Assembly (NCBI RefSeq): GCF_016919405.1
Contig: NZ_CP070352.1
Location: 310,001 to 374,000 of the forward strand
Length of the DNA: 64,000 nt
Reading direction: 5' to 3'
Origin: Ensifer sp. PDNC004
GTDB lineage: Bacteria; Pseudomonadota; Alphaproteobacteria; Rhizobiales; Rhizobiaceae
Under the pieces are notes generated by a model. That model saw only the letters and a list, made by a program, of their open reading frames with translations. It ran no database searches and was not told the DNA's origin. Shown piece after piece: positions 9,305-25,281 of this stretch. A program made the position numbers and the translations under genes. Positions within the stretch are counted from its first letter, which is position 1; each line of letters starts with the position of its first letter.

Positions 9305-11521
9305 TCAGGATGCATTGCGGTTGCGAATGGTCTTACCCGCTGCGATCGGAACCGGCGGCTCACTGTCCAGGCGAAATAGCGCGGCAACCTGCTGCAACCG
9401 CTCGGCAGCCACGCCCATCACGGCCCCGGATGCCTCCAGGATCTCACGAAGAGCCGTAAAGGCGGTGCGACGCTCCTCGACCGCTTCCGGCAGCAGCTTC
9501 GGAAGAGCGGCGAGTGCCGCCGCCTCGTCGATCAGCAGCATGAAATACTGCTCCCGCATAACGGTCTTGAAGTCGGCCAGGCTCAGTTGCTTTGCTTCCG
9601 GATGGGAAAGCCGGAGCCGGCGAATGGCCTCAAAGCCGCGTTCATCAGCGCCGCCGCGCGCCATGCCGACAAAAATCAGAGCTCTGGCAAGGCCTTCACA
9701 CGTTCCGCCCTCTGCCATCTGGGCCTTGAGTTCGGCGATCCGCGCCTTGACGAGTTCCCGGTGCAGCAGGCTCTTCTCCGCCTTTCGCGGCGGCTGCTTT
9801 GTGTTGGTGTCGACACCGAGTGCGGCCTGCAGGCTCGGAGCGCCGTAGAGGGCGTGGAAGCTCTGCTCCGAAAGGTACTCGGCCGTCCGCCGCCAGCTCT
9901 CGAGGCCGTCGACGATCTGCTGTGACAGCGCCTCCTGCCAGGCGATAAACGGGTTGCCGGCGGCGGCAGGTTCCCGGTTTTCGCGCACATGGTCCGTCAG
10001 CGCCGACGTCCAGGCCATGAACGGATTGTCCGGTCCGAAAAGCGCATATTGCAGGCGCAGCGGATGCATGTTGCGCATCGCCTCTGCCACGGGCGGCGTC
10101 GCCGCCGCCTTGACCATCGGCTGCAGGTAGGTGCGGTAGAGCGCCAGATTGATCTCCGAGAGCTTCGCCGCGGCGGCGAAACGCCTGTCGTCCTCGATGT
10201 CGTTGCCGCCGAGTGCGCGGATGTCCTCAAGAGTGCGCGACTCGCAGCGCATCAGCCATTCGCCGGAGACGAGCGCCCGGCCCTCGACCGTTTCGCTTGC
10301 CGGCGTCAGCACCGCCTCGTAAAGCCCCGGCGGCAGAACGTCGATCAGCTCGATGTTGGAGGCGAATTCATCGTGTTCCTTCCTGGCGACGCCCGCCGAG
10401 ACGAAGATGCCGAGATGGCCCACGGTCTCGTGCACGGTATAGACGATCGTCTGGCCGTAGGCGCGGATCTCGTCGACGCTGTCGTAGAGATCGAGGATCC
10501 AGTCAAGCGCCTGTTGCGGCGGGGTGATGTTGTCGCCCGTCGAGCAGAAGACCACGATCGGCGAGCGAATGTTGCGCAGGTCGATCGCGGTGCCGTCGGA
10601 GGTTCGTATTTCGCCGGCCGCGAGCTTGTTGCCCACGAAGAGCTCATCGACGATGAACTGCATCTCCTCTGCATTGAGCGTGACATGGCCGCCCCACCAG
10701 CGTTCGAAGCCGAGGTAGCGTGCCGCTTCCGTGTCGATCTTCGAAAAGAGATTGTACTGCTTGGTCCAGAGCGTGTTCGCCGGATTCTGGTTCTCGAAGT
10801 TCTGCACCAGCCAGGCGCCGTCAAAAATGCCACCACCGAGGTCGCCGGTCAGCGCCGTCAGCCAGCTGCCGCCGAGAAGCCCGCCGGAATAACGCATCGG
10901 GTTCTGCCCGCGCACGCCCGCCCAATAGGAAAGCGGCGCGCCGGCAATGATGATCGGGCCGAACAGTTCGGGCCGCAGCGCCGCAACGATCGTGACCGCC
11001 CAGCCCGCCTGGCAATTGCCGATCACGCAGGGCTTGCCATCTGCCTGCGGATGGCGGGCGATGACGGTTTCGAGAAAACCGGCTTCGGCCAGCGCGATGT
11101 CCTCGATCGTCTGGCCCGGAACAGGATCCGGCAGGAAGCCGATGAAATAGCAGGGATGGCCCGCTTTCAGCGCCACGCCGATCTCGCTGTCAGCCTTGAA
11201 GCCGCCGATGCCGGGGCCGTGCCCCGCCCGGGGATCGACGACAACGAAGGGACGCTTCGTCGGATCGATCGTGATACCCTCGGGCGGAACGATGCTGACC
11301 AGAGCATAGTTCACCGGCCGGGCGAGCGTGCGCCCATCGGTAACAAGTTGGGCCTCGAACTCCAGCACATTCGGCGCGGTCTGGGTGCGGTGTTCCTCAT
11401 ATTGCGCCCCACGCTGGCGCATCACATCGAGAAAGAGGACCGAACGCTGCCAGGCATCGAGCGAATAGGAATAGGCATCTGCGAAAGTCGGGATGGTCGG
11501 GCTCGTGGAATGCTTGGGCAT
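9305..11521 (-). CDS. PHA-synthase-like alpha/beta hydrolase (DUF3141 family)
   Basis: This is a 738-residue protein starting at the ATG at 11521 behind AGGAG. The first about 420 residues resemble the catalytic part of polyhydroxyalkanoate synthase. A lipase-like box V-I-G-N-C-Q-A-G carries Cys170, the PhaC-type nucleophile, and is followed by a plausible Asp330 (CSTGDNITPP) and His369 (VGHLGIF). The C-terminal 300 residues are helical and specific to the DUF3141 group. It likely acts on hydroxyacyl-CoA or a related thioester in the cytoplasm, but true polymer synthesis is unproven. As I recall, S. meliloti has a PHB-synthase-like ORF at the same place before pta-ackA. It is the first gene of the cluster, with a Pho-box-like site 112 nt upstream. 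Confidence 0.75.
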   Translation of the reverse strand: MPKHSTSPTIPTFADAYSYSLDAWQRSVLFLDVMRQRGAQYEEHRTQTAPNVLEFEAQLVTDGRTLARPVNYALVSIVPPEGITIDPTKRPFVVVDPRAGHGPGIGGFKADSEIGVALKAGHPCYFIGFLPDPVPGQTIEDIALAEAGFLETVIARHPQADGKPCVIGNCQAGWAVTIVAALRPELFGPIIIAGAPLSYWAGVRGQNPMRYSGGLLGGSWLTALTGDLGGGIFDGAWLVQNFENQNPANTLWTKQYNLFSKIDTEAARYLGFERWWGGHVTLNAEEMQFIVDELFVGNKLAAGEIRTSDGTAIDLRNIRSPIVVFCSTGDNITPPQQALDWILDLYDSVDEIRAYGQTIVYTVHETVGHLGIFVSAGVARKEHDEFASNIELIDVLPPGLYEAVLTPASETVEGRALVSGEWLMRCESRTLEDIRALGGNDIEDDRRFAAAAKLSEINLALYRTYLQPMVKAAATPPVAEAMRNMHPLRLQYALFGPDNPFMAWTSALTDHVRENREPAAAGNPFIAWQEALSQQIVDGLESWRRTAEYLSEQSFHALYGAPSLQAALGVDTNTKQPPRKAEKSLLHRELVKARIAELKAQMAEGGTCEGLARALIFVGMARGGADERGFEAIRRLRLSHPEAKQLSLADFKTVMREQYFMLLIDEAAALAALPKLLPEAVEERRTAFTALREILEASGAVMGVAAERLQQVAALFRLDSEPPVPIAAGKTIRNRNAS

Positions 11522-11632
11522 GATGTCCACTCCTCGGTGCGATTGAAGGTCGGCCCCGTTTCCAGAGCCAATAGAACAACGCAATTCGTCTCGCATTGAC
11601 CTTAGTCAAAGAGACAGGCGGCAGGCCGCGAT

Positions 11633-11650: not shown

Positions 11651-11820
11651 CCCAAGGCCATTGCTCGGGTCGAAGCAGCATAACTGCGGAGTGTTACGGC
11701 GATTTGTCGCCCGCGCGAATTCTTCGCCGTGGACCCCGTTGAAGAAGCATCGTTTCGCCAGCGTTCACTGATCTTTCGCACTGCAGCATTATCCAGAAAT
11801 GGGGAGCGCGCAAGTCAGGC

Positions 11821-11849
11821 CTTGAAATTCCGAACACCGCTTGCCAATT
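11821..11849 (+). promoter_or_regulatory. RpoH (sigma-32) type promoter of htpG
   Basis: CTTGAA at 11821-11826 (CTTGAAA with the next base) and CCAATT at 11844-11849 are 17 bp apart. They fit the alphaproteobacterial heat-shock pattern CTTGAA / CCnATnT and lie about 30 nt before the htpG start. A heat-shock promoter is expected for this gene. Confidence 0.5.
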
Positions 11850-11878
11850 GGGGCGAAACCCAAAGGAGTTGCCAGGCA

Positions 11879-13768
11879 ATGAGCGAAATCGAAATGTCCG
11901 TAGAGAAACATGTCTTCGAAGCCGATGTGGCGCGACTGCTCCATTTGATGGTGCATTCTGTCTATTCCGACAAGAACGTCTTCCTCCGCGAACTGATTTC
12001 GAATGCCGCGGATGCCTGCGAGAAGCTGCGCTACGAAGCGATCGTCTCGCCGGAGCTTCTGGCCGGTGACCCGACCCCGCGCATCACGCTGAAGCTGGAC
12101 GAGGAAAACAACCGGCTCGTCGTCGAGGACAACGGCATCGGCATGAGCCGCGACGAGCTGGTCGAAGCGCTCGGCACGATCGCCCGCTCGGGCACGCGCG
12201 CCTTCATGGAGCGTATCGAAGCCGCCCAGGGCAAGGAGGGCGCGCAGCTCATCGGCCAGTTCGGCGTCGGCTTCTATTCCGCCTTCATGGTCGCCGACAA
12301 GGTGGACGTGGTATCGCGTCGCGCCGGTTCCGAGCATGCCTTCCTGTGGTCGTCCGACGGCAAGGGCAGCTACACCGTTTCTGCAGCAGAGCTTGCCGAC
12401 GCCCCGGCGCGCGGCACGCGCATCACGCTGCACCTGATGGAAGACGCGAAGACCTACACATCGCGCTGGACCGTCGAGCGCGTCGTCAAGGACCAGTCCG
12501 GCCACGTGCCTGTGCCGATCTCGATTCTCGAAAAGCCCGATGCGGAACCGGTCCAGGTCGGCGACGGCACCGCGCTCTGGACGAAGCAGAAGAGCGAGAT
12601 CAGCAAGGAAGACTACGCCGATTTCTATCGAGGCGTCGCCGGCCAGTATGACGATCCGGCGCTGACGGTGCATTTCCGCGCCGAAGGCCGGCACGAATAT
12701 ACGGCCCTTGCCTTCGTGCCTGGTTCGAAGCCCTTCGATCTGTTCGACCCGGACCGCAAGGGCCGGATGAAACTCTACGTCAAGCGCGTCTTCATCACCG
12801 ACGAAGCGGAATTGCTGCCGCGTTACCTGCGCTTCGTGCGCGGTCTCGTCGATACCTCCGACCTGCCCTTGAACGTCTCGCGCGAGATGATCCAAGAAAG
12901 CCCGCTGCTCGCCAGCATCCGCAAGGGCGTGACCAACCGTGTGCTGACGGCGATCGAGAAGCTTGCGGAAAACGAGACCGAGACCTTCGACAAACTCTGG
13001 GAAAACTTCGGCAGCGTGCTGAAGGAAGGCATCTACGAAGACTACGAGCGCCGCGAACAGCTGGTGGCGCTGTCGCGCTTCCGTACCACCACGTCGGATG
13101 AGAGCCAGCGCAGCCTTGCCGATTACGTCAAGGACATGAAGGACGGCCAGTCGGCGATCTATTACCTGACCGGCGACAATCTCGCCCAACTCAAGGCCTC
13201 GCCACAGCTCGAAGGTTTTCGCGCCCGCGGCATCGAGGTGCTTCTCCTGACCGATCCGGTCGATAGCTTCTGGGTGACGTCAGCACCGGATTTCGACGGC
13301 AAGCCCTGGAAGTCGATTACGCAAGGGGCGGCCGATCTCAGCGCCATCGCCAAGCCCGAAGGCAGCAAGGAAGAGGCGCCGCAGGCGAGCCAGCTGGTCA
13401 TCGACTTCGTCGCCTTTGCCAAGGAAACCCTCGGCGCGGCCGTCTCGGACGTGCGCACCTCCGACCGCCTGACTGAAAGTGCGGTCTGCCTGGTGGCACC
13501 GGAACACGGCCCCGACCGCCAGCTCGAAAAGATGCTGCAGGGCGCCGGTCGTCTCGACGATGCCCCCAAGCCGATCCTCGAAATCAACCCGAGCCACGCG
13601 CTGATCACCGCCATGGCCGCAAGCCCCGCCGGCGATACGGCGTTCCGCACGGACGCCGTTCAACTCCTGCTCGACCAGGCGCGCGTGCTCGACGGCGACA
13701 AGCCGCAGGACCCGCGCGGCTTCGCCGAACGGCTGTCGCGCGTCTTCGACCGCGCCCTCAAGGCCTAA
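11879..13768 (+). CDS. htpG: Molecular chaperone HtpG (bacterial Hsp90)
   Basis: HtpG is an ATP-dependent dimeric chaperone of the cytoplasm. The protein is 629 residues, normal length, with the ATG at 11879 placed 10 nt after AAGGAG. The GHKL ATPase domain shows ELISNAADACEKLR, DNGIGM and GQFGVGFYSAFMVAD. The middle domain shows K-L-Y-V-K-R-V-F-I-T-D and PLNVSREMIQ. The C-terminal domain ends FDRALKA without the eukaryotic MEEVD tail. It stands alone as a transcription unit between a RpoH-like promoter and a strong terminator. Confidence 0.97.
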   Translation: MSEIEMSVEKHVFEADVARLLHLMVHSVYSDKNVFLRELISNAADACEKLRYEAIVSPELLAGDPTPRITLKLDEENNRLVVEDNGIGMSRDELVEALGTIARSGTRAFMERIEAAQGKEGAQLIGQFGVGFYSAFMVADKVDVVSRRAGSEHAFLWSSDGKGSYTVSAAELADAPARGTRITLHLMEDAKTYTSRWTVERVVKDQSGHVPVPISILEKPDAEPVQVGDGTALWTKQKSEISKEDYADFYRGVAGQYDDPALTVHFRAEGRHEYTALAFVPGSKPFDLFDPDRKGRMKLYVKRVFITDEAELLPRYLRFVRGLVDTSDLPLNVSREMIQESPLLASIRKGVTNRVLTAIEKLAENETETFDKLWENFGSVLKEGIYEDYERREQLVALSRFRTTTSDESQRSLADYVKDMKDGQSAIYYLTGDNLAQLKASPQLEGFRARGIEVLLLTDPVDSFWVTSAPDFDGKPWKSITQGAADLSAIAKPEGSKEEAPQASQLVIDFVAFAKETLGAAVSDVRTSDRLTESAVCLVAPEHGPDRQLEKMLQGAGRLDDAPKPILEINPSHALITAMAASPAGDTAFRTDAVQLLLDQARVLDGDKPQDPRGFAERLSRVFDRALKA

Positions 13769-17525: not shown

Positions 17526-18653
17526 ATGCAGGACTACGACGTGGCGATTATTGGCGGTGGAATTGCCGGCCTGTCGCTGGCCTATTTCCTGGCGCCGCAT
17601 CGCTCCGTCGTGGTGATCGAGCGGGAGGAAGGGCTCGGCTATCACAGCACCGGTCGCTCGGCGGCGGAGTTCGTGCTTCGCTATAATGCGCCGGAAGTCT
17701 GTGCGCTCGCGGCGATTTCCAAGGGCTTCTTCGACAACCCGCCCGAAGGCTTCTCCGAAATCGCGTTGCTCAAGCAGCGCGGCGGCGTGATGATCGCCAA
17801 TGCCGAAAAGCTTGCGCGGTTCGAAGAGGTGTTTGCCGCGGAGAGCCGTGCAACCGCCGAAATTGAACGGCTGAGCGTCGATGAGGCGATCGCACGCGTG
17901 CCGATCCTGCGCGGCGACTATGTGGCGGCGGCCTTTTACGATCCGCAGTTCTGGGACATCGAAGTCGAGAACCTGTTGCAGGGTTACGTCCGGGGCGCGC
18001 GCCGCCATGGTGCCGCGATCATCGAGCGCTCGGACGTGCTGGCACCGCGCCGAGACGGCGACCGCTGGGTTCTGGCTACGAGTACCGGCGAGGTTGGCGC
18101 CAAGACGATCGTCAATGCCGCCGGCGGCTGGGCCGATCCCGTCGCGCAATCGTTCGGCGTCGCCACCGTCGGCATCGTGCCGCATCGCCGCACGGCAATC
18201 ACCGTCGACCTGCCCGAAAGCGTCGATGCGCTGACGCTGCCCGAAATCAACGAGATCGACGAAGACTTCTACATGAAGCCTGAAGGCGGGCGACTGCTTT
18301 CCTCGCCTGCCGACGCAACGCCGTGCGAGCCGGCCGACGTCCAGCCGGAGGAGATCGACGTCGCCTGGGCCGCGCACTACGTCGAGGAGGCGACAACCGT
18401 GCCGGTGCGCCGTATCTTCAAGAGCTGGGCCGGCATGCGCAGCTTCTCGCCGGACAAGCTTCCGGTGATCGGCTTTGCCCGCGAGCGCCCGGACTTCTTC
18501 TGGCTCGCCGGCCAGGGCGGCTATGGCATCCTCACCTCACCGGCGCTCGGCGCATTCGCCGCAAGCCTTCTCGTCGGTGCACCCGCGCCCGAGGGCTTTG
18601 AAGCGGCCGGGCTCGACGCCTCGACGTTCAGCCCGGCCCGGCTGGAACGCTAA
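17526..18653 (+). CDS. FAD-dependent oxidoreductase, DAO/DadA family
   Basis: This is a 375-residue flavoprotein with an excellent GGAGG site before the ATG. The FAD dinucleotide motif is VAIIGGGIAGLSLAY at residues 6-20, followed by V-I-E-R-E and the H-S-T-G-R-S-A-A segment. A C-terminal W-A-G-M-R-S-F and G-Q-G-G-Y-G-I-L-T-S-P motif closes the FAD site. The family oxidises the C-N or C-O bond of amino or hydroxy acids. The exact substrate cannot be read from sequence. It is not clearly in an operon: a 95-bp gap separates it from the LysR gene and 196 bp from the next gene. Confidence 0.8.
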   Translation: MQDYDVAIIGGGIAGLSLAYFLAPHRSVVVIEREEGLGYHSTGRSAAEFVLRYNAPEVCALAAISKGFFDNPPEGFSEIALLKQRGGVMIANAEKLARFEEVFAAESRATAEIERLSVDEAIARVPILRGDYVAAAFYDPQFWDIEVENLLQGYVRGARRHGAAIIERSDVLAPRRDGDRWVLATSTGEVGAKTIVNAAGGWADPVAQSFGVATVGIVPHRRTAITVDLPESVDALTLPEINEIDEDFYMKPEGGRLLSSPADATPCEPADVQPEEIDVAWAAHYVEEATTVPVRRIFKSWAGMRSFSPDKLPVIGFARERPDFFWLAGQGGYGILTSPALGAFAASLLVGAPAPEGFEAAGLDASTFSPARLER

Positions 18654-18849
18654 CTCGAGCGGGGTTGCGGACCCAACCGCAGATCTCCCGTCGGGGGCTG
18701 GTTGCGCCCGGGCACCCCAAAGCAAACGACGCGCCGAGCCGACTGCCGGCGCCCCGGCCACCGTATCGCCACATCGTTCTGGAAACCTCCGCCTCGTCGC
18801 GCGCCCAAGCGGATCGCCGGCACCGAGGTTTCTTAGTGACGGATAAACG

Positions 18850-19809
18850 ATGTCCACCATGAAGGAATATTCCCGCCGGCTGCTGGCGCGGCAGGCCCCC
18901 GATCTCCTGACGCAACTCTACCGCTGGTCCCGCTCCAGCCTTTTCCGCGAGGAGCGCCGAACCAGCACGCGCGCCTTCATCGAGGCGCAGTATCGCGGCA
19001 AAACCGGACGGGTGCTCGAAGTCGACAGGCCGCGGGGACTGAGCGAAAAGCTCAATGCGCTGAAGCTTCTGCCTGCGACGGACTTGCAGACGATCTGCGC
19101 CGACAAAATCCGGGTGCGCGACTACGTTGCCGAGCGCGTCGGCGCGGATCTGCTCATCCCCGCCATCCTCGCAACCTATCGGCTGAGGGACATAACGCCC
19201 CGTAACATCCGGCAGGATGCTTTTGTCCTCAAGACGAACCACGACTTCGGCGGCGTGGTAATCTGCCGGGACAGGAACGCCTTCGACTGGGGTGCCGCCC
19301 GAGCGAAGCTCGCCGACCATCTGGCGTTCAACCATTGGTATCGGCACCGGGAGCCGGTGTATCGGGACATCCGGCCGGGCGTTCTCGTCGAAGAGTTTCT
19401 CCACGCAGATAGTCCCGATGGCTTGCGCGAGTTCAAGATCTTCTGTTTCCACGGTCGGCCGGATTTCATCATGGTCATCCGCGAGAAGGACGGCGTGCGC
19501 ACCAAGACGGTCTTCGACACAGATTGGCAGCCGTTGCCGGTGCGTCGGCGCGGCGCGCCGTGCGAACGGGAAGCGATCGCCGCACCCCAGTCCCTTCGCA
19601 CCCTGCTCGATGTCGCGACGGAACTCGCTGCACCCTTCGCTTTCAGCCGCGTCGATCTCTACGAGAATTTCGGTCGGGTTCTGTTCGGAGAAATCACCTT
19701 CTTCCCGGAGGGCGGCATGGATGTTTTCGAACCTTATGAGTGGGAACTGCGCTTCGGGGATCTGCTGCGATTGCCGACAGCGGAACCAGGAGAGGAGGCC
19801 CACACCTGA
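18850..19809 (+). CDS. TupA-like ATP-grasp protein, surface polysaccharide modification
   Basis: This 319-residue protein resembles the TupA-like ATP-grasp family. Marks are GLSEKLNALKLL, D-K-I-R-V-R-D-Y-V-A-E-R, FVLKTNHDFGG (ATP-binding Lys), LVEEFLHAD and F-K-I-F-C-F-H-G-R-P. The C-terminal metal-binding part is FSRVDLYENFGRVLFGEITF. These enzymes are thought to form amide or peptide-like bonds on extracellular glycans, as in teichuronopeptide. The stop overlaps the next gene's ATG (TGATG), so three ATP-grasp genes are translated in series. Confidence 0.8.
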   Translation: MSTMKEYSRRLLARQAPDLLTQLYRWSRSSLFREERRTSTRAFIEAQYRGKTGRVLEVDRPRGLSEKLNALKLLPATDLQTICADKIRVRDYVAERVGADLLIPAILATYRLRDITPRNIRQDAFVLKTNHDFGGVVICRDRNAFDWGAARAKLADHLAFNHWYRHREPVYRDIRPGVLVEEFLHADSPDGLREFKIFCFHGRPDFIMVIREKDGVRTKTVFDTDWQPLPVRRRGAPCEREAIAAPQSLRTLLDVATELAAPFAFSRVDLYENFGRVLFGEITFFPEGGMDVFEPYEWELRFGDLLRLPTAEPGEEAHT

Positions 19810-20846
19810 TGCTGCAAACTTTGGTTCGACAGACGATCGTCACACGCCGTCTTCGCTTTCTGAAAAGCCACGCGCGGCGCTACTGGTCAGACAGCGCTTC
19901 CACCGAGGTGCGGCAGTTGGCGCCGCTGCAGCGCATCCAGGACATTCTGGCTGGCTTCGACCCCAAGGAGGCCGACTGGTATCGCCAGATCCGCGGTGAT
20001 GTCAGGGGCGTCGTCACCAATTGCGAAAGAGAGCAGCACCTGCATGGCCTAAACGGCCACTATGCCTATGTGCTGGACAACAAGGCCGTGTTCACCGAGC
20101 TTCTCGTCTCGGCTCAACTGCCCACGCCGCAGATCTTCGCCTGCTACTTCGCAGATCGGTGGTATTGGCGCGATGAAAAACGAAGCGCTTTCCACGACGA
20201 ACTCGCCGCTCGCGGCCGTTTCGTCATCAAGCCGACACTCGGATCGAAGGGGCGTTCGGTGCAGATCGGCACGACCCCGGACGCCGTCGACAGCTATCGC
20301 GGCGAAGACGCCATTCTCACCGGCTTCGTGCAGCAGGCCGATTATGCCCAGGTAATTTTTCCGGACGCCTTGAACACGATACGCCTGCTCATGCTGCGCG
20401 ACGACGATGGCGCTCCGGTCCCGGCCGCCGCCATCCATCGCTTCGGCAGCGCGCGTTCGGTGCCGGTCGACAACTTCAGCGCCGGCGGCCTCGTCTCCAA
20501 GGTGGACCTGAAAACGGGGCGGCTTTCGCGCGCCGTTTCGATCGGCAAGGACAATCACGTCTGTCATCATGACTTGCATCCGGATACGCGGGCAGCGATG
20601 ACCGATGTCGAGATCGCCCATTGGCCGGCGGTCCTGCGGCTCGTCGAGGATCTCGGCCGCGCCTTTCCCTATCTGCATTATGTCGGCTGGGACATTGCGG
20701 TGACGCCCGATGGACCGACTGTCATCGAGGGCAATGCGCATCCGAGCCTGCGCTTCTTTCAGCTTTATGATCGCCTGCTCGACGATCCACGACTACGCCG
20801 CATCTTTGCACGTTATATCCCCCGAGCCAACGGTGAGCCACTCTGA
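19809..20846 (+). CDS. Sugar-transfer-associated ATP-grasp protein (first copy)
   Basis: The protein has 345 residues, starting at the ATG at 19809, which shares one base with the previous stop. The ATP-grasp fold is shown by RFVIKPTLGSKGRSV (glycine-rich loop), then IHRFGSARSVPVDNFSAGG. The metal-binding end is HYVGWDIAVTPDGPTVIEGN, where E and N are the usual Mg ligands. It matches the PF14397-type sugar-transfer ATP-grasp group. It probably ligates a carboxylate to an amine on a sugar or lipid-linked glycan in the cytoplasm. Substrates are unknown. It is clearly paralogous to the following gene. Confidence 0.8.
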   Translation: MLQTLVRQTIVTRRLRFLKSHARRYWSDSASTEVRQLAPLQRIQDILAGFDPKEADWYRQIRGDVRGVVTNCEREQHLHGLNGHYAYVLDNKAVFTELLVSAQLPTPQIFACYFADRWYWRDEKRSAFHDELAARGRFVIKPTLGSKGRSVQIGTTPDAVDSYRGEDAILTGFVQQADYAQVIFPDALNTIRLLMLRDDDGAPVPAAAIHRFGSARSVPVDNFSAGGLVSKVDLKTGRLSRAVSIGKDNHVCHHDLHPDTRAAMTDVEIAHWPAVLRLVEDLGRAFPYLHYVGWDIAVTPDGPTVIEGNAHPSLRFFQLYDRLLDDPRLRRIFARYIPRANGEPL

Positions 20847-21880
20847 TGGCCGTGCTCCCGATCATCGGCACCATCCGGCACCGCGTCTCCTTGCTGCGGC
20901 AGTTCTGGGCGCTGGAACGGCGCGGAAATGCCGGTCGCCCCAGGTTGCGGCTCCTGACCCGCGGGTTCTTGTCTAACCGCGCCTGGCTCTACCCTTTCGA
21001 CCAGTTCCACCAGCACCTGTTTCTGACCGACCTCGAGGCCGAAGCGCGGTTGCCGCGGTTGAACAGCCCGGAGGCGATGGCGCTTCTCGGCGACAAGCTG
21101 CGGTTCCACCAATGGGCGGGCACGGGCACCTTTCCCGCATCCTGTCCGGAGTTGATCGGGATCATCGAGGATGGTGTCGCGAGACGGCTCGACGGCGGCC
21201 CGCTGCCGCGCGCCGAAGCCGACGGCCGCGCGATGATCGCAAAGCCGGTCGACGGCAGCGGTGGGCGAGGCGTCAAGCGCATAGCGTCGATCGATGACGT
21301 CGACCGACTTGGCCGCTATCTGATCGAAGCCGCCGTCGTGCAGCATCCCTACGCTTCCGCCATCTACCCGCACGCGGTCAACACGATCCGCGTCCTTGTC
21401 GGCCATGACGAGGCGACCGGGAAGACGGTGCTGCTCGGTGCCGCACACCGCTTCGGAACACAACGCTCGCGCCCGACGGACAACTTCAAGGCCGGCGGCA
21501 TCGTTGCGCTGGTCGATCTCGAGAGTGGTCAGCTGACCGCTGCGATCGCCGATGATGGCTGTCCTGAAAGGACGATCTTCGATCGTCACCCCGAGACGGG
21601 CACTGCCATCGTTGGAACCATCATCCCACGTTGGAACGACATCAAGACGCTGGCGTTGCAATGCACGCGCGCTATCCCCGGTCTGAGCTATGTCGGCTGG
21701 GATATCGTGTCGACCGAAGCCGGCCCGGTCGTGATCGAGGGCAATGCCGCGCTGGCCAATCCCAACCTCATCCAATTCCATGAGCCGATGCTGCTTCGCA
21801 AGGAGGCGCGGGACTTCTTCGCTGCCAAGGGCACGATCAGCCCCCGCCGGGTAAAGCGCCTGCGCGCCTTCGCTGCCTGA
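20846..21880 (+). CDS. Sugar-transfer-associated ATP-grasp protein (second copy)
   Basis: The protein has 344 residues and again starts on TGATG overlap with the previous gene. It shares the motif set of its neighbour: MIAKPVDGSGGRGV, AHRFGTQRSRPTDNFKAGG, and SYVGWDIVSTEAGPVVIEGN. Sequence outside these motifs has diverged, so the two are old paralogues with likely different substrates rather than a recent duplication. It ends 12 nt from the convergent flippase gene. Confidence 0.8.
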   Translation: MAVLPIIGTIRHRVSLLRQFWALERRGNAGRPRLRLLTRGFLSNRAWLYPFDQFHQHLFLTDLEAEARLPRLNSPEAMALLGDKLRFHQWAGTGTFPASCPELIGIIEDGVARRLDGGPLPRAEADGRAMIAKPVDGSGGRGVKRIASIDDVDRLGRYLIEAAVVQHPYASAIYPHAVNTIRVLVGHDEATGKTVLLGAAHRFGTQRSRPTDNFKAGGIVALVDLESGQLTAAIADDGCPERTIFDRHPETGTAIVGTIIPRWNDIKTLALQCTRAIPGLSYVGWDIVSTEAGPVVIEGNAALANPNLIQFHEPMLLRKEARDFFAAKGTISPRRVKRLRAFAA

Positions 21881-21892
21881 CGAGCGGTCCGA

Positions 21893-23470
21893 TCAGCCGT
21901 TGCGCGATGCCTGCGGGTCGGCAATCGTTCCGAGGATCAGCGGGATGCGCGATTTCGCCGAAGCCCAATCCCCACGCACGACATCGGACATGGCCTTGAG
22001 CAACAGGATCGTCTGCCGCGGATTGAAGGCGGCCCAGGCCAGCCCGTACACGATCACGCCGTTCGCAACCAGTGAGCAGAGCAACGGCACCGGCTGCAAG
22101 CCATGAATGGTCTCGCTGGCAAACCAGACGGAACCGGCCATGATCAAGGACGGAAGCGCTGCAATGAAAAGCATGCGCAACTGGCCGAGGGGATGCAGAC
22201 CGGAGACGCGATAGACCTGCATCGCGCCGACCGGCCAGAGCGTCCATTGCCGGAGCGACAGCGCGGCGGCAACGCCGACGAGGCCATATTGGACGCCGAC
22301 TGCGAGGAAGGCCGCGCCCAGAACAATCGACAGAACGGAAATGAAGGATACGGACCCCATGCGGCCGAACGCGACCAGCACCGCCGTGTTGAAGCTCGAG
22401 ACCGGCGCGCGCAGGGTTCCAAGCGCAAGGATTTGAAGCACGGGGATCGCGCCGGCCCATCCGTCGCCGAACGCCAGCGGCACGAGGACCGGGGCGACCA
22501 TTGCGACACCAAGGACGACCGGCCAGAACACCCAGGTCGTCAGCCGCACGGATGTCTCGATCAACCGGGCAAGGCGCTCCCGATCGTGCTGCAGCTGCGC
22601 GGCGGCGGGAAAGGCGACTGCCGCAACGGGACCGCTCAGAATGTTGTGCAACTGGTCGAGCAGCCGACGAGCGACAGCAAACAGGCCGAGCGCTTCGGTG
22701 CCTAGCCATTGGCCGACGAACAGCCGCGGCAGCGCGTTCTGCGAGATGTAGGTCAGTCCGTTGTTTTCGACCCGGCGCGATGCAAAGCGCAGGACTTCGA
22801 CGAGTTCCTGCCGCTGAAAGCCGAGGCCGGGTCGCCAGCGCGCTGCCGGAAAGAGCATCGCGAGGGTCATCGCGCGCCGCGCGATCTCCATGATCACGAG
22901 GCTCCAGATGCCGGCGCCGGAGAAAGCCAAGACCACGCCGACGAGAACGGCCAGGGTTCCGCTGATCGCCCCGATGCGGGCAAGATCATTAAATTGCAGC
23001 CGCCGCACGAGGATCTGGTTGGGAACGCTCGCAAGCCCGGTGAGAACGGGCAGAACCGTCATCGCAAGAAGCGGCGCCTGCAGCTGCGGCGCCTCGAAGA
23101 AGTCCGCCGCAGCGGTCCCACCCGCCCAGATCACGGCAGCCGAGAAAACCGAAATCACGCTCAGCGCGACGAAGGCGGCATTGCGATGGCCGGCTGTGAC
23201 ATCCGGTTTCTGCACCACGATGTCGGCGGCATGACCGCCGACGAAGATCTCCGCGAAGCCGACGATCAACAAACCGAGCGCGAACACACCATAAGTCTCG
23301 GCGCCAAGAATTCGTGCCAGGATGATGGTGCTTATGGTTGCAAGCAACGCCTGCGCCAGTTGGCCCAATGACGCCCAGATGGCTTGCCCGGTCAGTTTTA
23401 CTGCACGGCTCAATAGATCTGCCTTCCGTCGTTCGGCTCGCAAACTAGCCGAAGCAAGCCTGCTTTCCAT
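21893..23470 (-). CDS. Wzx-like polysaccharide flippase (MOP/MATE superfamily)
   Basis: This is a 525-residue integral membrane protein with about 12-14 hydrophobic helices. The N-terminus is typical of O-antigen/exopolysaccharide translocases (ARILGAETYGVFALGLLI), with F-N-D-L-A-R-I-G and a further amphipathic repeat in the second half. Flippases of this group move lipid-linked oligosaccharides across the inner membrane. It is convergent with the three ATP-grasp genes and divergent from a glycosyltransferase, so the locus looks like one surface-glycan module read from three promoters. Confidence 0.82.
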   Translation of the reverse strand: MESRLASASLRAERRKADLLSRAVKLTGQAIWASLGQLAQALLATISTIILARILGAETYGVFALGLLIVGFAEIFVGGHAADIVVQKPDVTAGHRNAAFVALSVISVFSAAVIWAGGTAAADFFEAPQLQAPLLAMTVLPVLTGLASVPNQILVRRLQFNDLARIGAISGTLAVLVGVVLAFSGAGIWSLVIMEIARRAMTLAMLFPAARWRPGLGFQRQELVEVLRFASRRVENNGLTYISQNALPRLFVGQWLGTEALGLFAVARRLLDQLHNILSGPVAAVAFPAAAQLQHDRERLARLIETSVRLTTWVFWPVVLGVAMVAPVLVPLAFGDGWAGAIPVLQILALGTLRAPVSSFNTAVLVAFGRMGSVSFISVLSIVLGAAFLAVGVQYGLVGVAAALSLRQWTLWPVGAMQVYRVSGLHPLGQLRMLFIAALPSLIMAGSVWFASETIHGLQPVPLLCSLVANGVIVYGLAWAAFNPRQTILLLKAMSDVVRGDWASAKSRIPLILGTIADPQASRNG

Positions 23471-23625
23471 CTCACGATAGATTTTGCCTTGTTGTCGAAA
23501 TTGAGGGCAGGCCGCCTTTTTGTGGACGTTTCAAGCGTCATGGTTGTGCACGTTTTCCGGGTGACACCCGGTTCATCGAGCGAATGCGCTGCAGGGGAGG
23601 CAGCGATCGAGGAGGAGCATAAAGC

Positions 23626-24786
23626 ATGAAATTGTCGAAAGAATCTCGCAACTGCGCCCGCGTGTCGATCATCGTTCCGACCTACAATCGCGCGCAGTTT
23701 CTGCCGGCTGCAATCGACGCGCTGCTGCCGCAGATCGCGGGGGATGACGAGATCGTCGTCGTCGACGACGGTTCGACCGATGAGACCATGGATGTGCTGT
23801 CCCGATACGGTGACAGGATCAGCGTCCTCAACCAGGAAAATGCCGGCAAGGCACGCGCCCTCAATGCCGGCTTGCAACAGAGCACTGGCCAATATGTCTG
23901 GATCGTCGACGATGACGACATCGTCTGTCCGACGGCCCTCTCCGATCTCCTGCGGGTCTTCGAGGCGGATCCATCAACCGACATCGCCTATGGGCGCTAT
24001 GTCCGCTTTCAGCACGAGCTGGACACCCCTGCCCGTTTCCTCGACACCGGCTACTGGACCGACTGCTCGCCGGACGACTTCCTGATCGCCACACTGGAAG
24101 ACTTTTTCGTCCATCAGCCGGGCATGCTCGTGCGCCGCCGGCTTTACGAAGCGGCGGGCCCCTTCGACGAAGCGCTGCCCCGATCCGTCGACTACGACAT
24201 GCTGATCCGGCTGTCGCTTCTCGGCAGGGCGACGTCGACCCGCAACATCATCTTTCACCAGCGCTTGCACGACGGCGACAGAGGACCGGCGGCAAGCCGC
24301 TTCCAGGCACATCGCCGAAATCAAAACTGGATCAGTAACGACGCCCTCATATTCGACCGCCTGCACCAGACACTGCCGCTGGCGGACTACCTGCCCACAC
24401 GGCGGATCGAGAGCGCCGAAGAGCGACGCCGAGCCCTTCTCCAGCGCGGCGCCATCATGGCCCGCAAGAAGCGCTGGGACGTGGCGATCACCGACTTCGG
24501 ACACGCGATGGAGGAAAGCCGCAGCGCTTTGACCGGCCATGAGAAGCGCATCCTGCGGCGCGCAACGGGATCGAAATACGATTGTGACGAGGTCTTCGGC
24601 AATGCCGCGATCGATGAGGGCCTGCGCGCACTCAGCCGCCGATATCCGTCGGGGCGCGAAGTTGCCCGCTCGCTCGCGCGCGGCCTCGTCTGGAGGGCCC
24701 GCGATGCGGCGACCCGCGGCGAGCTCACACGCAGTTCGCGGATCGCCCGGCAGGCCTGTCGATGGGCGGCGACGGCCTGGGGCTGA
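23626..24786 (+). CDS. GT2 family glycosyltransferase with C-terminal extension
   Basis: The protein is 386 residues, with GAGGAGGAGC before the start. Residues 12-230 form a GT-A domain: VSIIVPTYNRAQFLPAAID, E-I-V-V-V-D-D-G-S-T-D, ENAGKARALNAGL, a W-I-V-D-D-D-D metal site and a V-D-Y-D-M-L-I-R-L acceptor region. About 150 residues of helical sequence follow that I do not recognise. It probably adds a sugar to a membrane-linked glycan for the adjacent flippase. Donor and acceptor are unknown. Confidence 0.85.
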   Translation: MKLSKESRNCARVSIIVPTYNRAQFLPAAIDALLPQIAGDDEIVVVDDGSTDETMDVLSRYGDRISVLNQENAGKARALNAGLQQSTGQYVWIVDDDDIVCPTALSDLLRVFEADPSTDIAYGRYVRFQHELDTPARFLDTGYWTDCSPDDFLIATLEDFFVHQPGMLVRRRLYEAAGPFDEALPRSVDYDMLIRLSLLGRATSTRNIIFHQRLHDGDRGPAASRFQAHRRNQNWISNDALIFDRLHQTLPLADYLPTRRIESAEERRRALLQRGAIMARKKRWDVAITDFGHAMEESRSALTGHEKRILRRATGSKYDCDEVFGNAAIDEGLRALSRRYPSGREVARSLARGLVWRARDAATRGELTRSSRIARQACRWAATAWG

Positions 24787-24808
24787 TCGGATGAACAGGC
24801 GCCCCTCT

Positions 24809-24836
24809 CGGGCGGCACGCCCGGTGATGCCGCCCG
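24809..24836 (+). terminator. Hairpin after the glycosyltransferase gene
   Basis: CGGGCGGC (24809-24816) pairs with GCCGCCCG (24829-24836) around a 12-nt loop, 22 nt after the stop codon. There is no T run, so termination strength is uncertain. Confidence 0.4.
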
Positions 24837-24897
24837 CGCGACAAGATGTTGATGCCGCCGGCAAAACCTGACAGGAATACACGCGGGAGGACGGTTC

Positions 24898-25281
24898 ATG
24901 TATTACGCAATCTTGGCCTACCACGCAGCAGGCGTCGTCGAATCCTGGACCGAGGAGGAGGACGAAGCGCTGATGACCGACCTGCTTCAGGTTCATGACC
25001 GGTTCGTCCAGCAGAAGGCCTTTGGCCCGGCCGCCCGGCTCGGACCCGCCGAAGGTGCCGTGACGCTAAGGGGCAAGGGCGAAGGCATCGTCACCGATGG
25101 CCCCTTCGCCGAAACCAAGGAGCAATTGCTCGGCCTCTACGTCGTCGACTTCCCGGCCATCGACGCCGCCGTTGACGCCGCGCGCGAATTGCGCCGCTCC
25201 AATCCGAGCGCGATCTACGAAATCCGGCCGATTGCACTCTACATTCCCGGCGCGACGCTGGACCCCGGTCCGCAGAACTAG
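24898..25281 (+). CDS. YCII-related (DGPF domain) protein
   Basis: The protein is 127 residues, with GGGAGGA upstream of the ATG. The motif TDGPFAETKEQLLG defines the DGPF subgroup of YciI-like proteins, small ferredoxin-like fold proteins. Their genes usually sit beside an ECF sigma factor of the RpoE group. No sigma factor gene is present here on either side. The function is unknown; a stand-alone regulatory or enzymatic role is possible. Confidence 0.85.
   Translation: MYYAILAYHAAGVVESWTEEEDEALMTDLLQVHDRFVQQKAFGPAARLGPAEGAVTLRGKGEGIVTDGPFAETKEQLLGLYVVDFPAIDAAVDAARELRRSNPSAIYEIRPIALYIPGATLDPGPQN

Follow-up and report, generated by a model that had tools for sequence, protein, structure and literature searches.

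The window analyzed here, the whole 64,000-nucleotide stretch of Ensifer sp. PDNC004 DNA, holds five neighboring genes that behave as one accessory island. The genes, the two ligase gene junctions and the stretches that differ among Ensifer genomes are as follows:

18850..19809, + strand: TupA-like ATP-grasp ligase (P0001; PF14305, 319 aa)
19807..19811, + strand: TGATG junction of the TupA-like and ST2 genes, 1-base overlap (same in G401)
19809..20846, + strand: ATPgrasp_ST ligase ST2 (P0002; PF14397, 345 aa)
20844..20848, + strand: TGATG junction of the ST2 and ST3 genes, 1-base overlap (same in G401)
20846..21880, + strand: ATPgrasp_ST ligase ST3 (P0003; PF14397, 344 aa)
21893..23470, - strand: Wzx-type flippase of the MOP family (P0004; PF13440, 525 aa)
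23626..24786, + strand: GT2 glycosyltransferase (P0005; PF00535, 386 aa)
18668..24549, no strand: stretch absent in one piece from six plasmid records of Ensifer adhaerens, including G216 (Casida A)
18654..24840, no strand: whole island, approximate limits (alignments with G154, G313 and G395 break off at 18646-18647 and start again at 24837-24849)

The three ATP-grasp genes run head to tail (18850-21880), and both of their junctions read TGATG, as an earlier note on this DNA had pointed out; the congener G401 has the same junctions. These overlaps suggest translational coupling of the ligases, but the synthesis in a fixed ratio that the note had also proposed does not follow from them. The flippase and GT2 genes do lie beside the ligases; the flippase gene, however, runs the other way, facing the ligase genes tail to tail and the GT2 gene head to head, so that the five genes are not a single operon.

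All five family assignments are well above their Pfam cut-offs: the TupA-like protein matches PF14305 at 126.6 bits (curated cut-off 25), ST2 and ST3 match PF14397 at 131.2 and 138.7 bits (curated cut-off 31.4), and the flippase and GT2 reach 208.7 bits (PF13440, MOP/PST type) and 120.4 bits (PF00535). The gene order is kept in Ensifer G401, and a comparison of two Ensifer genomes yields dN/dS values of 0.10-0.16 with no internal stops, all five genes being under purifying selection between them. Taken together, the Pfam matches, the order kept in G401 and the purifying selection rule out chance or artefact.

The ligases have moreover kept what an ATP-grasp enzyme would need. The N-F-x-A-G-G and V-I-E-G-N motifs attributed to both paralogs can indeed be read from the ST2 and ST3 translations, and the invariant columns of the orthologue alignments include K128, R267, D269, E281 and T283 of the TupA-like protein (21 sequences), K141, R192, D295, E307 and N309 of ST2 (29 sequences), and K133, R182, D286, E298 and N300 of ST3 (26 sequences). 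From ATP-grasp enzymes in general, we take K128/D269/E281 of the TupA-like protein to serve in ATP/metal binding, and K141/D295/E307/N309 of ST2 and K133/D286/E298/N300 of ST3 to have the corresponding core roles. The expected ATP/metal ligands are thus invariant in all three orthologue sets, which rules out degenerate ligases. Structure prediction, suggested for all three active sites, covers two of them: the models of the TupA-like protein (pLDDT 91.8) and ST3 (pLDDT 90.8) find their nearest solved folds in Ddl/ArgX and RimK/ArgX, respectively, with which they share fold and catalytic core; the best structural alignments (with RimK 5zct_C, ArgX 3vpb_A and Ddl 6u1k_D) show 18-21% identity, and substrates are not transferable. 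Sequence searches of solved structures returned no clear relative of ST2 (best E 0.015) or ST3 (best E 0.0026), and no match to the TupA-like protein up to E 1.

The same trio of ligases is found in Salinarimonas and Aerophototrophica and, as inferred by matching three separate protein searches rather than from DNA, in Nitratireductor, Tabrizicola and six further contigs; the trio of contig 7201, 76-86% identical, probably comes from Ensifer or a near relative. A neighborhood conserved across genomes, on which the earlier proposal depended, is found for the ligases, although their TupA-ST2-ST3 order was seen on DNA only in two Ensifer genomes. The three proteins co-diverge (Mantel r 0.94-0.98 over 12 sets), in a test that includes the shared ancestry of the hosts and in which 8 of the 12 sets rest on matching separate protein searches, not DNA. 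Within this material the ST3 of Tabrizicola is incomplete (264 aa), the protein starts in Aerophototrophica and Salinarimonas are unsure, and one of the three ligase protein searches scored the best 7997 candidates by shared words. ST2 and ST3 form separate clades in a tree of 51 hand-chosen rows, in which labels denote the search that found each protein and long branches, Parvularcula included, are flagged. A search of plasmid DNA with the ligase genes gave no match, and a plasmid protein search with ST2 gave eight records, none of them from Ensifer, near relatives being possibly left out. As judged from these comparisons, the TupA-like ligase, ST2 and ST3 are a real, rare and co-inherited three-ligase set.

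Among 16 congeneric genomes, two carry the five-gene island intact; absences in the genome samples come from a non-exhaustive scoring of 5 or 6 first-look candidates per genome, and the family-, order- and class-level samples partly coincide. The six E. adhaerens plasmid records share an identical scar, at which the alignment stops at 18667 and restarts at 24550 with ~31 bases between, leaving a 3' stub of the GT2 gene. E. adhaerens strains in which the block is naturally lacking are Casida A, M8, NER9, E-60 and Corn53. By contrast with this stub, in G154, G313 and G395 no island gene or stub was found, and the upstream oxidoreductase gene directly adjoins a YCII gene. The five genes are thus one discrete accessory island, present or missing as a block. 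Its end stretches hold a direct pair of 13 bases (24825/24850, 92%), an inverted pair of 14 bases (18605/18625, inside the upstream gene) and no further pair, and the longest word shared by its ends, 10 bases, is equaled in 67 of 282 random window stretches; no flanking repeat was thus found, and a reading of the island as a transposon was rejected. None of the five proteins matched a PADLOC family, and none of the three ligases a PHROGs family, at E 0.001, and an anti-phage defense or phage-derived module was discarded on these grounds.

The RimK/ArgX-like fold of ST3 might suggest that the ligases tag proteins or another intracellular target in the manner of RimK, with the flippase and GT2 as unrelated neighbors. 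We hold this to be very improbable, since the five genes come and go as a block whose order is kept in G401, and since the precedent for a TupA-like ligase is the amidation of a capsule (in the available text of PMC11800379).

Our favored reading, to which we give about an even chance, is that the island decorates, through amide bonds, a surface glycan that contains uronic acid; the three enzymes probably link amino acids or comparable amines to a surface sugar that is then exported. As to substrates, reaction order, lipid linkage, export and the contribution of other loci, we infer the following scheme. Each of the three ligases would use ATP to activate a carboxylate and would then couple an amine to it; the most likely target of the TupA-like enzyme would, as with Cj1438C, be the uronic acid carboxylate at C6, and ST2 and ST3, two old paralogs, could either lengthen the substituent or modify other carboxylates. 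GT2 would add a sugar to the (modified) glycan, the flippase would export the lipid-linked product, and its completion would fall to polysaccharide machinery from other parts of the genome.

The closest biochemical precedent, compared by description and not by sequence, is Cj1438 of Campylobacter jejuni HS:2, whose TupA-like domain, beside a GT2 domain, amidates capsule glucuronic acid with phosphorylated serinol or ethanolamine, the phosphate being removed by Cj1435 (PMC11800379, in the available text). Both systems have a TupA-like ligase adjoining a GT2, and for Campylobacter it has been demonstrated that a glycan carboxylate is amidated; in Cj1438, however, a single ligase and the GT2 are domains of one protein, whereas the Ensifer island has three separate ligases, a separate GT2 gene 3.8 kb from the TupA-like gene, without a Cj1438-type fusion, and a flippase. 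No Cj1435-like phosphatase was recognized by Pfam among the five genes. The namesake of PF14305, TupA of alkaliphilic Bacillus, belongs to a system in which polyglucuronic acid and poly-gamma-L-glutamate are joined as teichuronopeptide, but in a Gram-positive cell wall, and the available part of the source describes no three-ligase set (PMC8153356).

Two of the ligases need not extend what the first begins. One EPS, according to the available text, carries Ala in amide linkage on two GalA residues, one of which also bears amide-linked Ser (PMC4663550), and the distinct clades of ST2 and ST3 are compatible with different substrates; the ligases could thus act independently on different carboxylates or amines of one glycan, a variant of the favored reading that we regard as unlikely, co-inheritance fitting stepwise extension equally well.

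Operons of linked ATP-grasp ligases were reportedly described by Iyer et al. in 2009. In such operons, known here through the available part of PMC4431377, adjoining ligase genes are thought to act in succession, surface polymers included, and successive ligation is said to be frequent. This also speaks for a metabolite reading, which we consider somewhat unlikely: the ligases would build a small soluble or lipid-linked peptide-like (oligo-amide) metabolite, with optional glycosylation by GT2, export by the MOP transporter and no polysaccharide at all. The Salinarimonas locus has an uninterrupted same-strand run of TupA, ST3 and an MFS gene, with ST2 pointing away from it; beyond these come NRPS genes (condensation, AMP-binding and carrier domains) and a TauD gene, and the nine genes scanned include no glycan gene. 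This arrangement speaks against a strictly glycan reading; yet the NRPS genes converge on ST2 and could simply be neighbors. Near the TupA-ST3 pair of Aerophototrophica lie genes for a transporter of the flippase family, a hydrolase, a LacI regulator and a TonB receptor, with no glycosyltransferase among six genes scanned, and in Haloplanus YcaO and SagB genes lie within 7 kb of an ATPgrasp_ST. Against the metabolite, the three full-length relatives of the Ensifer GT2 examined on plasmids all sit in polysaccharide loci, and PF13440 transporters are usually polysaccharide flippases.

For the decoration of a surface glycan speak, besides Cj1438 and the GT2 relatives, the flippases that adjoin the ligases in G401 and TupA-ST3 in Aerophototrophica; being only 25% identical between Ensifer and Aerophototrophica, they are not one conserved partner. 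Distant ATPgrasp_ST regions on plasmids (seven viewed, out of eight records) have an annotated flippase within 7 kb in only three cases (Natrononativus, Rhizobium, Shinella), whereas those of Haloplanus, Lichenicola, Caballeronia and Halomontanus have no annotated glycan gene within that distance in an incomplete gene table. These four regions, the low flippase identity and Parvularcula, with an ST2-like gene and no TupA match, count against the glycan. So does the island itself: it shares its MOP/PST flippase with Wzx/Wzy-type polysaccharide loci, but Pfam recognized no initiating transferase, polymerase or uronic-acid gene in it, and neither an initiating sugar-phosphate transferase nor a Wzy polymerase was present among the five genes and 10 flanking genes scanned.

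A bolder proposal, which we advance only as a rather doubtful one, is that of a three-ligase assembly line long kept together in scattered Alphaproteobacteria, which would build, stepwise, a defined non-ribosomal tri-amide (a short peptide) on a single carrier: in Ensifer a lipid-linked sugar, in Salinarimonas a different carrier. The result would amount to a cytoplasmic Mur-like peptide branch for a non-peptidoglycan surface molecule. In line with the earlier note, no characterized three-ligase locus in rhizobia appeared among the literature matches listed, in a search with subscription journals mostly outside its scope; the Pfam name of PF14397 retrieved no paper, and the term ATPgrasp_ST did not occur in the listed 20 of 24 matching papers.

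Amide-linked amino acids and amines alter the charge and recognition of bacterial polysaccharides, and to our knowledge few ligases are known for such decoration, Cj1438C being the one biochemical precedent found in the literature search. The natural presence, deletion and absence of the island among close Ensifer genomes offers a clean comparison for finding the product of the trio, and could help give PF14397 a function. As to the island DNA, a promoter scan of 18640-24900 gave 0 sites against 0.8 expected, and the same span holds seven terminator-like sites against 4.3 expected, neither count being informative. The GC content of the island is level with that of its flanks.

The three ATP-grasp ligase genes of the window (hereafter the trio) constitute a real, co-inherited, and rare module, an unusual threefold grouping of ordinary enzyme families. 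The contig that holds the window measures 1.79 Mb, in a genome of 6.78 Mb, and the earlier note's description of three overlapping ATP-grasp genes accompanied by a flippase and a GT2 gene is borne out by five Pfam matches over cut-off and by the TGATG junctions, the trio running head to tail with the A of TGATG held in common by each neighboring pair.

The five genes of the island (window coordinates, strand, gene; each a Pfam match over cut-off)
18850-19809, +, TupA-like ATP-grasp ligase (PF14305)
19809-20846, +, ST2, ATPgrasp_ST ligase (PF14397)
20846-21880, +, ST3, ATPgrasp_ST ligase (PF14397)
21893-23470, -, Wzx-type flippase (PF13440), downstream of ST3
23626-24786, +, GT2 gene (PF00535), after the flippase

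ST2 and ST3 are ~32% identical over their full alignment. PF14305 has one match in the source genome and PF14397 three, the third of which scores 22 bits and falls below cut-off, and the trio thus holds the only over-cut-off matches to these two families. Elsewhere in the window, an HSP90-family (HtpG-like) gene (11729-13768) adjoins a DUF3141 gene (9305-11596).

From a coevolution perspective, the distance matrices of the three ligases are strongly correlated across 12 sets (TupA–ST2, r = 0.963; TupA–ST3, r = 0.942; ST2–ST3, r = 0.981), none of 9,999 permutations reaching any of these values; common host ancestry could account for part of the correlation. A tree of 51 rows places ST2 (19) and ST3 (18) on opposite sides of a branch with support 96/95, the ST3 fork is supported at 91/99, and the two halves, judged by eye, branch alike. 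Within one genome, ST2 and ST3 are 31–38% identical, when the minimum identity is 44% among ST2 and 38% among ST3. From these sequence comparisons, we infer that the ST2/ST3 duplication probably predates the spread of the set.

As for the family, 43 of 394 genomes carry a TupA-like match over cut-off and 123 an ATPgrasp_ST match, many of the latter being short matches of ~35 bits; matches above 70 bits occur in 23 genomes, counting the source genome. Among the matches listed, only the source genome combines a TupA-like with two ATPgrasp_ST ligases: G264 has two ATPgrasp_ST, and G309 and G038 have one ligase of each family a few kilobases apart, the TupA-like frame of G038 being interrupted by a stop. 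A further genome of this sample (G348) has six TupA-like matches spread over several contigs. At orthologue level, ST2 is confined to the source genome (584 bits) among 397 order and 385 class genomes, with best scores elsewhere of 119 and 221 bits, respectively. Searches of the protein database with the three ligases gave eight protein triplets, grouped by equal size of source contig alone, including Nitratireductor (contig 18,797) and Tabrizicola (3,629). In Salinarimonas ramus, the trio lies within ~3.1 kb with TupA and ST3 on the same strand and ST2 divergent, an arrangement unlike that of Ensifer; in Aerophototrophica crusticola, TupA and ST3 share an ATGA overlap and lie next to a flippase, with ST2 on a separate contig. 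In the family of Salinarimonas (ST2 search, 1 of 149 genomes) and in that of Aerophototrophica (ST3 search, 1 of 82), the one match was the genome from which the search was centred. Parvularcula, where an ST2-like gene but no TupA match was found, is a counter-example to co-occurrence. A Gemmatimonadales MAG (L071, 617-5182) has three ATPgrasp_ST matches in 4.6 kb, which may be a three-ligase array of another kind.

Closer to the source, the named protein nearest to ST3 among the matches listed is from Ensifer sp. KUDG1 (94%), and ST2 is present in 2 of 16 congeneric genomes, G000 (the source) and G401. The latter keeps the five island genes in unchanged order, at 77–85% amino-acid identity, and shares the YCII/phosphonate-transport flank next to GT2; a search of 2.8 kb past the island did not find the upstream oxidoreductase. 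All five genes are under purifying selection between these genomes (dN/dS 0.10–0.16; flank genes YCII 0.07, phnC 0.04). The state of the site was read from the flanks in six of the 16 genomes. In E. adhaerens Casida A, one of these six, the flanks align unbroken to window position 18667 and resume at 24550; the block between is absent, and a GT2 remnant of 80 residues is left. A search of 72,556 plasmid records found this remnant in 6, each from E. adhaerens (E-60, M8, NER9, Casida A, Casida A-T305, and Corn53), with both breakpoints identical in all six. Because a remnant was left behind, the sequence points to loss of the island in this clade; not all records so named are without the genes, as an ST3 protein (P0007, 77% identity) bears the name E. 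adhaerens. In G154, G313, and G395, the oxidoreductase directly adjoins YCII with no GT2 remnant found between them, and these genomes may have lost the block or never carried one. No flanking repeat was found when the two ends of the island were compared.

With regard to function, we hold amide decoration of a uronic-acid glycan to be an even bet, and the stepwise peptide building proposed in the earlier note is not established. According to PMC11800379, the TupA-like domain of Cj1438, a Campylobacter jejuni capsule amidation protein, uses ATP to join serinol-P or ethanolamine-P through an amide to C6 of glucuronic acid, its GT2 domain afterwards requiring the amidated acceptor. By analogy, the TupA-like enzyme would amidate, GT2 would then extend the chain, and ST2 and ST3 would be further ligases; for the Ensifer trio, this precedent speaks to plausibility only. 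The general idea of linked ligases and successive ligation was already known, since a passage of PMC4431377, citing Iyer et al. 2009, gives it as a frequent role of linked ATP-grasp ligases (e.g., teichuronopeptides, O-antigen); this three-ligase set was not found in the literature searched, among the matches listed.

The surroundings of related genes bear on this reading. GT2 relatives in Palleronia, Salipiger, and Leisingera (38–41% identity; three regions inspected, from the best 15 of 1,178 matching records) all lie within polysaccharide loci. Of seven plasmid regions viewed around distant ATPgrasp_ST genes (8 records), three carry an annotated flippase no more than 7 kb away. On a plasmid of Shinella sp. 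WSC3-e (L194, 1-9309), the ligase stands in a row with an acyl carrier protein, an AMP-binding protein, a type III PLP enzyme, a cupin, and a nucleotide-sugar dehydrogenase, with a flippase at the edge; the PLP enzyme, AMP-binding protein, carrier, and dehydrogenase suit an amine joined to a uronic acid, and the row looks like an amine-to-uronate amide pathway. On a haloarchaeal Natrononativus plasmid (L191, 6590-11403), the ligase and an oligosaccharide flippase converge, and a gene of the O-antigen ligase family comes next; the convergent ligase/flippase layout of this archaeon is that of the Ensifer window. No such flippase/uronate context was found in the viewed plasmid regions of Haloplanus, Lichenicola, Caballeronia, and Halomontanus. 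In the Haloplanus region (L190, 6779-14825), an amidase, an M28 peptidase, SagB, and YcaO lie a few kilobases from the ligase, a set that recalls a modified-peptide cluster.

A possible link of trio-type ligases to non-ribosomal peptides comes from Salinarimonas ramus (L063, 6455-20824), whose trio is flanked by an MFS transporter and an NRPS run (condensation, AMP-binding, and carrier domains, TauD dioxygenase), which counts against the glycan reading. With regard to glycan decoration, an alphaproteobacterial MAG (L069) has a flippase 1.4 kb from its ATPgrasp_ST ligase, although a scan of 10 genes there showed no glycosyltransferase, and in another class member (L174) a flippase and a gene for a pyruvyl transferase lie a few kilobases from an ATPgrasp_ST ligase.
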